A stretch of 29,865 nucleotides of DNA, from positions 1 to 29,865 of IMG/VR virus record IMGVR_UViG_3300034104_004843; one strand, 5' to 3'. A program made the position numbers and the translations under genes. Below the pieces are notes generated by a model. That model saw only the letters and a list, made by a program, of their open reading frames with translations. It had not been told where the DNA came from and ran no database searches. Source of the stretch: a virus. This document shows positions 3,158-4,849 of this stretch, piece by piece; position 1 is the first letter of the stretch, and each line of letters starts with the position of its first letter.

Positions 3158-3186
3158 TTGACAAGTCGATACTCTTAGTGTAGAAT
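3158..3186 (+). promoter_or_regulatory. sigma70-like promoter ahead of HhH glycosylase-like gene
   Basis: TTGACA (3158-3163), a 17-bp spacer and TAGAAT (3181-3186) fill the gap after the sulfotransferase-like gene. The GGAG at 3203-3206 and ATG at 3213 follow. Confidence 0.85.
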
Positions 3187-3212
3187 CACAGCATAACCCA
3201 TTGGAGACTACT

Positions 3213-3917
3213 ATGATTGTTGAGAACACTGTTATCCCGATTCAGAATACTACTCTTGATAAGAGCAAGGCTGATATTTTCTTCGCTAATTTTCCGCGAG
3301 ATAAGGTTGTAGCATACAAGGACTATTGGGAAAGTGTGCGTCCACAAAATGTGGAAGATATTTTTCGTCGGTATCTCTTTGCGTTTTGCTCCGTTCATAC
3401 GACATGGAAGGGTAATTGTGCCGGATATAATGCTATCAAGAATTTTGCTGAGTGGGTTAACGATCAAGAAGCATTGAAGGAAAAACTCCACAAGAGCGGC
3501 GTTGGTCTACACAATAATCGCACAAAGTATATTTGGGATTTTGCCACAAAGTTTTGGGCTAATCCTAAAGACTTTTATTTTACATCAAAGAAAGGCCACG
3601 TTAAGAAGCGTGACGAAATCGTAAACAAGATTAGTGGTATTGGTTTGGCTAAAGTTAGTTTTGCTCTGGAAATGATTCATCCTAATGAGGCACGAGTATT
3701 GTGTGGTGACGTTCATCAACTTCGCCTTTACGATATGGAACATCTGAAGTATAATAAGAGTAAGAGTGGAACCGATTCTTACAAGAAGATGGAGCGTCAT
3801 TGGGTAGTAAACTGCGGAAAGCATAAAATTCCACCGTATATTGCTCGTTGTCTTTATTGGGATAATCTTCAAAAGAAAGATGATAGTCGTTACTGGAGTT
3901 TTGTTTTGGAGTCATAA
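3213..3917 (+). CDS. helix-hairpin-helix (HhH-GPD-like) DNA glycosylase-like protein
   Basis: I start the gene at ATG 3213 because GGAG at 3203-3206 sits seven bases upstream. An in-frame TTG at 3201 would overlap that site. The 234-residue protein is mostly helical. Around residues 140-150 it has KISGIGLAKVSFAL, which fits the hairpin of HhH DNA glycosylases (LPGVGxKTAxxxL), and CGDVHQLRLY follows near 164-173, in the place of the family's catalytic-aspartate segment (VDTHVxR). This suggests base-excision repair or lesion recognition, or removal of a modified base. No FeS cysteine cluster is visible. Codon use is the AAG/GGT/CGT type. Substrate unknown; it may be a binding protein only. Confidence 0.6.
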   Translation: MIVENTVIPIQNTTLDKSKADIFFANFPRDKVVAYKDYWESVRPQNVEDIFRRYLFAFCSVHTTWKGNCAGYNAIKNFAEWVNDQEALKEKLHKSGVGLHNNRTKYIWDFATKFWANPKDFYFTSKKGHVKKRDEIVNKISGIGLAKVSFALEMIHPNEARVLCGDVHQLRLYDMEHLKYNKSKSGTDSYKKMERHWVVNCGKHKIPPYIARCLYWDNLQKKDDSRYWSFVLES

Positions 3918-3919
3918 AT

Positions 3920-4099
3920 ATGAGTCAAAATGGTAAAGGGGATACTCCTAGACAAAAAGGAGTATCATGGAAAGTTTGGGATAAAAATTACGAACAAATT
4001 TTTGGTAAGAAACAAAAAAAATCAAGTTGGGCAGTTGACAAGCCGATAAAGGATGATAGAATACAAGAGTCTAAGCGAGAGGATCAGTCGCGTGACTGA
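3920..4099 (+). CDS. conserved small phage-type protein (59 aa)
   Basis: Starts at ATG 3920, two bases after the previous stop, with GGAG at 3908-3911. The sequence GDTPRQKGVSWKVWDKNYEQIFGKK resembles in pattern short phage proteins of the type GDxPRP...FxxNWDxIFGKK, whose function is not known to me. The rest is hydrophilic and charged. Its 3' third contains the promoter of the next transcription unit and ends within the leader hairpin. That makes the end of this gene double as regulatory DNA. Confidence 0.65.
   Translation: MSQNGKGDTPRQKGVSWKVWDKNYEQIFGKKQKKSSWAVDKPIKDDRIQESKREDQSRD
4035..4062 (+). promoter_or_regulatory. sigma70-like promoter for the HTH-like gene, leader and 3' RNA
   Basis: TTGACA (4035-4040), a 16-bp spacer and TAGAAT (4057-4062) lie inside the end of the preceding small gene. 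The predicted start, near 4069, is just before a strong hairpin. The same transcript could extend through the structured RNA and tRNA-Leu. Confidence 0.8.
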
Positions 4100-4104
4100 C
4101 TCGC
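4075..4104 (+). promoter_or_regulatory. 5' leader hairpin of the HTH-like gene
   Basis: GCGAG (4075-4079) pairs with CTCGC (4100-4104), and TCAGTC (4084-4089) pairs with GACTGA (4094-4099) around a GCGT loop. A four-base bulge (AGGA) lies on the 5' side. The hairpin begins within about ten bases of the predicted transcript start, a position typical of stabilising 5' hairpins. Confidence 0.6.
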
Positions 4105-4140
4105 AAAGACGGTTGGTTGTTTAAGATTTGGAGGTTGATT

Positions 4141-4422
4141 ATGGCTGAAGTTACTAATGTTGAGAAGCAGAGTCGTGTTCGTTGTGGTGATGAGGCTTTT
4201 CTTGAGGCGGTATATTCGTCCAAGACTTATGCTGAGATTGCTACTAAGACTGGTCAGAAGGTTGCTAGTACGATGGCTCGTTTTGCTCGTACAAAGGCCG
4301 CTCTGGCTAAGAAGGGTATTGAACTTCCTAGTATGGAACGTGCGAAGCCTACCAAGACGGTGGATAATGTCGAGGCTATGGCTGAGTTTGTTCGTCGCCT
4401 CAAGGCTCATAATAACGGCTGA
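4141..4422 (+). CDS. small HTH-like protein (93 aa)
   Basis: ATG 4141 follows GGAGG (4130-4134). A longer reading from 4117 would include the binding site and is rejected. The middle reads AFLEAVYSSKTYAEIATKTG then QKVASTMARFARTKAALAKKGIELP. That fits a helix-turn-helix followed by a basic helix, in the manner of small phage proteins with a predicted recognition helix. It probably binds DNA or RNA; the target is unknown. Codon use (CGT, AAG, GGT) indicates strong expression. The gene sits between a leader hairpin and a downstream RNA whose loop complements its ribosome binding site, so it looks heavily regulated. The basic C-terminal half could also favour RNA binding. Confidence 0.6.
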   Translation: MAEVTNVEKQSRVRCGDEAFLEAVYSSKTYAEIATKTGQKVASTMARFARTKAALAKKGIELPSMERAKPTKTVDNVEAMAEFVRRLKAHNNG

Positions 4423-4431
4423 GAGTCGATT

Positions 4432-4512
4432 GGTAGTCGGCTACAACATTTATAACGGATGAGGTACACAAGCATAATCAACCTCAGACTTGTATTGTTG
4501 TGGTCGATTACT
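4432..4512 (+). ncRNA. structured RNA with a loop complementary to the upstream ribosome binding site
   Basis: Bases 4432-4448 pair with 4496-4512 in an uninterrupted 17-bp stem including four G-U pairs. Inside, ACAAG (4468-4472) can pair with CTTGT (4489-4493), exposing a 16-nt loop. That loop contains CATAATCAACCTC (4473-4485), an exact complement of 4131-4143, which is the ribosome binding site plus ATG of the HTH-like gene. GAGGT (4461-4465) can alternatively pair with ACCTC (4481-4485), giving a competing fold or pseudoknot. TTTT at 4512-4515 follows. Pairings were read by eye. It could be a 3'-UTR-derived regulatory RNA, a cis-element or a terminator/processing structure before the tRNA. 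Confidence 0.6.
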
Positions 4513-4517
4513 TTTAT

Positions 4518-4602
4518 GCCGGGGTGGCGAAATTGGCGAAACGCACGACACTTAAAATGTCGCACACTAGAAACGTTGCGGGTTCGAATCCCGCTCCCGG
4601 CA
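4518..4602 (+). tRNA. tRNA-Leu (anticodon UAA)
   Basis: A complete class II tRNA of 85 nt. The acceptor GCCGGGG (4518-4524) pairs with TCCCGGC, and the discriminator is A4602. The T arm is GCGGG-TTCGAAT-CCCGC. The anticodon stem is CGACA/TGTCG around the loop CTTAAAA with anticodon TAA, and a long variable arm follows. CCA is not encoded. It reads UUA, a codon very common in the AT-rich genes of this window, so it may supplement the host supply. Confidence 0.95.
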
Positions 4603-4630
4603 CTTTAACTAATAACAAAAAGGAAAACAA

Positions 4631-4849
4631 ATGAGCAAAAACACTCTGGAATTTTACAATGTTGGAACTAAGGTTAAGTTGGCAGATGATGTTTATGGAA
4701 ATATTATTACTGTTAGTATTGGCCCTAATCATTCAATCACTTATAAGTGTGGTTGGTGGAATGGTCGAACATATTGTACAGAGACTTTTAACTCTTCTGA
4801 AATAGAGGCTGTTGTTACTACAGAAAAAACTCGCATAGGATTTATTTAA
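4631..4849 (+). CDS. conserved hypothetical protein (72 aa)
   Basis: ATG 4631 has AAGGAAA just upstream. The sequence GTKVKLADDVYGNIITVSIG...ITYKCGWWNGRTY has the pattern of a small beta-barrel (SH3-like) module seen in short phage proteins, with G-x-V-x-GWWNGR near the middle and an acidic helix at the end (SSEIEAVVT). Function unknown. It follows tRNA-Leu and heads a run of small co-oriented genes with no visible promoter of its own, so it may be read from the 4035 promoter. Confidence 0.7.
   Translation: MSKNTLEFYNVGTKVKLADDVYGNIITVSIGPNHSITYKCGWWNGRTYCTETFNSSEIEAVVTTEKTRIGFI

Follow-up and report, generated by a model that had tools for sequence, protein, structure and literature searches.

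Self-regulation of bacterial mRNAs through their 3'-UTRs is known from very few cases, of which icaR of Staphylococcus aureus is the best studied and serves as an experimentally established precedent for 3'-UTR/5'-UTR pairing (PMC3868564). There, a UCCCCUG motif in the long 3'-UTR of a bacterial host gene pairs with the SD of the same regulator-encoding mRNA, which blocks translation initiation and leaves the duplex open to RNase III (PMC3868564). In the hok mRNA of the plasmid R1 hok/sok system, the 3' end folds back on the 5' region, pairing with the far 5' end, and the message stays untranslated; processing removes the 3' end and thereby activates the toxin. This fold-back inhibition is also mentioned in PMC3868564. 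Among phages, hairpins that sequester the ribosome binding site (RBS) time the expression of the T4 genes e, soc, 49 and I-TevI, and the T4 tRNA region encodes two RNAs, RNA C and RNA D, whose role is unknown (PMC3014915).

The element described here lies in the virus record IMGVR_UViG_3300034104_004843, a stretch of 29,865 bases that was studied at its full length and is referred to below as the window; its genes include tmRNA, DNA ligase, endonuclease VII and rIIA. Between the stop codon of a gene for an HTH-like protein and a tRNA-Leu gene we find a hairpin with a loop that complements the RBS and start codon of that HTH gene (Table 1). The hairpin is shown to have a conserved structure, to be strictly linked with the HTH gene and to carry a loop that is complementary to the RBS and coevolves with it. 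We consider it likely (probability about 0.68) that the hairpin is a 3'-UTR cis-antisense switch acting on its own HTH mRNA, although pairing in the cell, repression, RNase P maturation and early shut-off are all inferred.

Compared with icaR, the phage element is compact: within 81 nt, a hairpin combines a covarying stem with a competing local GAGG helix and a 13-nt complement long enough to cover the start codon, and the adjoining tRNA possibly sets the 3' end. The likeness is one of mechanism, and no sequence relationship is claimed. Two features of the icaR type are present, namely, a 3'-UTR complement to the SD of the same message and a complementarity that is under selection (and absent in one class of relatives, type 2 below); by analogy, it is likely that the phage hairpin works like icaR-type 5'-3'-UTR autoregulation, with both the translation block and the exposure to RNase III remaining inferences. 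Like the hok message, the phage mRNA may fold back on its own 5' region; the complementarity is seen and the folding in the cell inferred, and here it is the SD and the start codon themselves that would be paired. The phage locus shows no recognized gene for a toxin or an antisense RNA, the gene product being a 93-aa HTH-like protein. The T4 RBS hairpins likewise belong to phage mRNAs in which base pairing hides the SD or the start codon; those hairpins are local to the start site and are made by the position of transcription start, whereas the masking strand of the present element lies in the 3'-UTR behind the gene. RNA C and RNA D resemble it in being encoded in a phage tRNA region, without any claim of homology, the difference being that the present element goes with an mRNA and that a candidate target can be named for it.

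Table 1. Features of the HTH transcription unit (positions in the window)
Feature	Positions	Strand	Basis or remark
Sigma-70-type promoter TTGACA-N16-TAGAAT, CGATA in spacer	4035..4062	+	near-consensus; would drive the HTH transcription unit
5'-UTR two-helix hairpin, GCGT loop cap	4069..4110	+	fold shared with relatives
RBS, spacer and start codon GGAGGTTGATTATG	4130..4143	+	putative target of the loop; includes the exact complement of 4473-4485
Gene of the 93-aa HTH protein	4141..4422	+	weak PHROG 323 and Sigma70_r4_2 matches; predicted three-helix bundle
Conserved 3'-UTR hairpin RNA, whole element, 81 nt	4432..4512	+	covariance model R1 from this study, 76.6 bits
P1 stem, 5' arm	4432..4448	+	minimum-free-energy fold; covaries in relatives
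P3, 5' arm UGAGGU, local copy of the SD letters GAGG	4460..4465	+	GAGG nearly invariant in 45 variants
Antisense segment CATAATCAACCTC	4473..4485	+	exact complement of the RBS/start site
P3, 3' arm ACCUCA; CCTC able to pair with local GAGG or SD	4481..4486	+	predicted fold, alignment
P1 stem, 3' arm	4496..4512	+	minimum-free-energy fold; covaries in relatives
tRNA-Leu(UAA)	4518..4602	+	begins 5 nt past the hairpin

An earlier note on this stretch, made from sequence alone, had placed a 17-bp stem at this position, and its coordinates, sequence and stem all held: P1 is the minimum-free-energy fold, and the hairpin folds with z scores of -5.1 (98 nt) and -6.3 (76 nt) relative to shuffles, compared with -0.8 for the opposite strand. 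Within P1, the predicted inner helix is P3, which covers the ACCTC part of the antisense segment and leaves about 15 nt of the loop open, AUAAUCA included. The further claim of a GAGGT/ACCTC alternative fold that hides the loop was supported, with GAGG/CCTC as the conserved inner helix. The inner stem ACAAG/CTTGT that had also been proposed failed: its letters are present, the predicted fold does not contain it, and 28% of the alignment cells are paired, as in shuffles. An H-type pseudoknot of ACAAG/CTTGT with GAGGT/ACCTC was rejected on the ground that ACAAG/CTTGT is not conserved.

Two other candidate readings of the region were set aside. The opposite strand was ruled out as a functional RNA, having no special fold. 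As for an intrinsic terminator, no terminator-like site (a G+C-rich stem directly followed by a T run being required) is present at 4432-4520; a T-run after the hairpin occurs only in a few relatives, such as L102 and L112, and most have the tRNA within a few nucleotides.

Scans of IMG/VR with the HTH gene yielded 237 loci where a position could be assigned to the gene, some of them overlapping records of one contig. They represent a large family of freshwater phages, about 100 distinct loci from large phages, and nearly all of the 237 carry the hairpin directly 3' of the stop codon. By their loops, the elements fall into three classes: type 1, to which the window belongs (68 distinct RBS/element combinations), type 2 (17) and type 3 (2). 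The comparison of homologues that the earlier note had suggested did reveal covariation in the stem. Across 45 distinct aligned type-1 elements, 97% of the cells are paired over the whole structure, and 10 of the 16 P1 pairs show changes on both sides; cells with both-side changes number 85, against 16 in shuffles, a level that none of 500 shuffles reached. P3 behaves differently, with GAGG/CCTC nearly invariant and none of its four pairs covarying in the same 45 variants. Such invariance is expected if CCUC is fixed by the SD, and CCTC is indeed retained where GAGG has become GAGA (L033, L108) or GTGGG (L376). The loop letters GCACA are conserved as well, although RBS pairing does not require them, and remain unexplained. 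At the gathering score, Rfam 15 recognizes only the tmRNA and the tRNA in the window, with no credible match for 4432-4512; the hairpin thus represents a new phage RNA family outside Rfam 15. The tmRNA gene itself (69-425) was detected by Rfam with 116.6 bits and missed by ARAGORN.

The element is strictly linked to the HTH gene. A DNA-pattern scan that made no use of this gene returned 80 places, 75 of which have it directly upstream, the others being one contig edge and four chance matches, so that linkage holds in 75 of 75 assessable places. With the covariance model, each of 15 large contigs contains at most one copy. On its other side, the hairpin is followed by a tRNA gene in all 87 relatives tested. 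This gene is tRNA-Leu(UAA) in 79 of them; in the other 8 it is called as a tRNA-Phe and bears an intron. Four loci have about 430 nt inserted between hairpin and tRNA, and there the hairpin remains with the HTH gene.

The earlier note had also reported that the loop is the exact complement of the start region about 330 nt upstream, and this held: GAGGTTGATTATG (4131-4143) and CATAATCAACCTC (4473-4485) are exact 13-nt complements, 329 nt apart. No 13-mer complement arose in 20,000 dinucleotide shuffles of the 81-nt element. Because an exact 13-nt inverted repeat appears somewhere in the 444-nt transcript in 2.5% of shuffles, and a few other such repeats exist in the whole window, the match in a single sequence is suggestive and not compelling; its strength comes from its conservation. 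In 64 of the 68 distinct type-1 loci, the loop forms at least 8 contiguous Watson-Crick pairs with its own RBS (13 in 17 of the 68), a level reached by 1.5% of shuffled loops, and complementarity to the start region is absent in type 2. On the whole type-1 contig G001, the loop's own RBS is its best match among 313 gene starts.

Energetically, the duplex in the window is worth -17.8 kcal/mol, against 12.0 for opening the P3/loop side and 3.7 for opening the RBS, a net gain of only about -2; over 71 loci, the net pairing energy is favorable in 64, with a median of -4.1 kcal/mol. These energies leave out the penalty for pseudoknot topology. A near-balanced exchange between the local and the distant GAGG is the kind of balance that a switch requires, but the calculation alone does not prove pairing.

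The main support for the pairing comes from the joint evolution of loop and RBS. Using a tree of 91 coding sequences and a parsimony count of changes in the RBS core (GAGGNNNN), we found that the core GAGGTTGA changed 11 times over 1.25 branch units where the loop lacks TCAACCTC and only twice over 5.65 units where the loop has it, a 25-fold higher rate in the lineages that have lost the complement (p 3.6e-7). Control sites (4 and 8 nt upstream of the SD, first codons, promoter) gave ratios of 0.6- to 1.5-fold, none significant. With an extended set of loci, each loop scored by how it pairs with its own RBS, 14 changes fell in unpaired and 3 in paired lineages (p 4e-6), all three of the latter being exchanges between GAGGTTGA and GAGGTTTA. 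Resting on a parsimony count and on an ORF tree that is short and of poor resolution, the p-value is indicative only.

Matched changes point the same way. The common combination is RBS GAGGTTGATTAT with loop ATAATCAACCTC; RBS GAGGTTTATTATG is matched by loop ATAATAAACCTC in L327, L328, L368 and L370 and by loop AATAAACCTC in L376, so that RBS core GAGGTTTATT occurs with loop core AATAAACCTC in both L327/L368 and L376. A G-to-T change in the RBS is thus paired with a C-to-A change in the loop in two lineages, whose independence could not be established (AU p 0.63), leaving one or two events. At greater distance, L282 (75% protein identity) has retained both the element and a 13/13 complement. 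Conversely, L283, L284 and L285, in which the tRNA follows about 10 nt past the stop codon without a hairpin, lack the RBS core, and their RBS spacers (ACTTAAACA, ACAATTAAT and ATTAACAA) are without TTGA. A permutation within types did not show loops to fit their own RBS significantly better than permuted ones, either in type 1 (p 0.39) or in type 2 (p 0.23); this comparison lacks power, type-1 RBS variation being almost nil. On this evolutionary evidence, RBS and loop are coupled, and the complementarity is kept by selection in type 1. Regulation in cis of the HTH start site, one of the two possibilities raised in the earlier note, is thus supported by coevolution, the regulation itself being inferred.

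The surroundings of the element are conserved in turn. In each of 89 distinct relatives, a TTGACA promoter precedes the start codon by 101-110 nt, and the two-helix 5'-UTR hairpin is found in 75 of 75, with 50 different outer stems and a median z of -3.1; an Rfam 15 search of 4055-4150 gave no credible match for it, and it is apparently missing from the element-less L283. Because linkage, tRNA, promoter and 5' hairpin are all conserved, the HTH gene likely forms a transcription unit of its own, whose mRNA is structured at both ends and for which no transcript data are available. The gene preceding the unit (3201-3917) likely encodes an 8-oxoguanine DNA glycosylase-like (Ogg-HhH) protein (Pfam E 3.4e-9).

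As to the HTH protein, it matches PHROG 323 (D5-like transcriptional regulator) weakly (E 6e-4) and Sigma70_r4_2 at E 0.003, under the cut-off. Its predicted model is a three-helix bundle over residues 18-57 (mean pLDDT 73), with which a fold search found nothing below E 0.4. More than 150 relatives of the protein exist in IMG/VR, while searches of isolated phages by DNA and by protein returned none, and blastn of the phage collection with window positions 4100-4640 gave no match. A host was not assigned: the genome collection gave only two matching contigs, from a Chitinophagia MAG and a Flavobacteriales MAG, which are possibly mis-binned phage contigs and were not trusted.

Type 2 departs from this picture. 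Its 17 distinct loci keep a hairpin (stem CTTCCAACTACAT/ATGTAG..GGAAG, hairpin TAGA/TCTA), with RBS complementarity that is mostly weak and a canonical RBS in about a third; the L075/L076 lineage again has an 11-bp RBS match. From the fact that the scaffold persists with mostly weak complementarity, we infer that the hairpin probably has a second role, most simply 3'-end protection, or else that type 2 has another target. No convincing site for the type-2 loop was found among the gene starts of G006. The type-2 loop has conserved letters of its own, ACATAGACAA (e.g., in L152 and L062), the complement of which, TTGTCTATG, would include a start codon.

Several other explanations deserve consideration. 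The hairpin could be merely a 3'-end stabilizer or a processing element for RNase P or RNase III at the mRNA-tRNA junction, its RBS complementarity being incidental. In favor of this view, the tRNA begins 5 nt downstream in the window and a tRNA follows in every relative tested, and every element type has the long, nearly perfect stem, even type 2 without the complement. Yet it leaves unaccounted for why the RBS core is frozen only where a loop complement exists, and it explains neither the matched double changes nor invariant loop letters beside a freely varying stem; moreover, L283-L285 do without the hairpin although their tRNA follows the stop codon closely, and the four insertion loci part hairpin from tRNA. 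We regard it as unlikely. Also unlikely is an inverted DNA operator, in which the HTH or another protein would bind the RBS sequence and its inverted 3' copy, for example, in autorepression by looping. The gene product does resemble a DNA-binding HTH protein, and two copies of one site would likewise covary; against this, the second copy is always antisense and lies in a loop closed by a covarying RNA stem, the match stays fixed at the SD and ranges in length from 8 to 13 nt through variation at the spacer/start-codon end, no other copy exists in the window with up to 1 mismatch, and a few loci (L122, L076) keep the pairing only via G-U wobble.

We consider two further alternatives to be very unlikely. 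One is a trans-acting small RNA, the other possibility raised in the earlier note, in which the hairpin, once processed, would be set free and base-pair with further messages of the phage or the host. Cleavage by RNase III and RNase P would yield the hairpin as a stable product, and one more gene start of G001 (L245 near 8711) has GGAGGTTGATTTAATC upstream, with 10 nt complementary to the loop, and is a possible trans target. However, the loop's own RBS is its best target on G001, the motif GAGGTTGAT is rare upstream of other genes, and the HTH gene accompanies the element in every case, a linkage that a trans-acting RNA would not need. Action in cis is much better supported because the element is single-copy and always lies behind its own target gene. 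The other alternative is that a protein recognizes the loop, for example a host factor or the HTH protein itself as an RNA-binding autoregulator, and that loop and RBS resemble each other as two copies of its site. The conserved GCACA, not needed for RBS pairing, and the conservation of the 5'-UTR hairpin would fit this idea, but the RBS copy is a reverse complement, and one RNA-binding protein would not read both.

Under the preferred reading, the cis-antisense switch, a strong early promoter would produce a transcript that opens with a hairpin and continues through the RBS and the HTH coding region to a 3' hairpin abutting the tRNA. RNase P cleavage at the 5' end of the tRNA would make the hairpin the 3' terminus of the mRNA; in the few lineages with an inserted gene before the tRNA, this terminus would instead be set by termination. 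The long stem would shield it from 3' exonucleases. The loop, by means of its open nucleotides and the CCUC strand of the weak 4-6 bp closing helix, is predicted to pair with the SD, spacer and start codon upstream and to block 30S binding. CCUC would thereby swap partners between the local GAGG, with the RBS free, and the SD GAGG, with the RBS masked, and the HTH message would turn off its own translation once its tail is transcribed. That the effect would be repression is inferred because the pairing falls on the SD and start codon.

A bolder version of this reading, which we judge to be less likely than not, is a self-timed early regulator mRNA with hairpins at both ends, a 3' end made by RNase P and a two-state loop closing on its own start, possibly gated by the HTH protein, with type 2 as a case of a lost or changed target. 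If this is true, each mRNA of the phage RNA family would serve as its own antisense. The natural variants supply evolutionary evidence for 3'-UTR pairing together with a ready compensatory set, and type 2, without the complement, and L283-L285, without the element, offer natural comparison sets. The switch would give a proposed role to an unnamed RNA that heads phage tRNA genes and would be a compact, testable design for a self-limiting message.

Some minor observations concern the flanking sequences. The roughly 430-nt insertion is found in L139, L112, L175 and L212, about 100-530 nt past the HTH stop codon; by eye, and without a family search, its end read on the reverse strand resembles an HNH endonuclease. 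The tRNA after the element has an intron of about 200 nt in its anticodon loop in 38 of the 87 relatives tested, and one of these introns (L023:5394-5593) matches the group I model RF00028 with E 2.8e-10 and 44.1 bits, just under the gathering score of 50; the tRNA-Leu of the window is without an intron. Finally, several instances of the promoter form TTGACA-N2-5-CGAT-N7-10-TANNAT are found within some 20-kb stretches of the phage genomes, with examples at 3158-3186 and 4035-4062 of the window and in L246, L267 and L271; it is probably a phage early promoter class, in which the conserved CGAT of the spacer is unusual.
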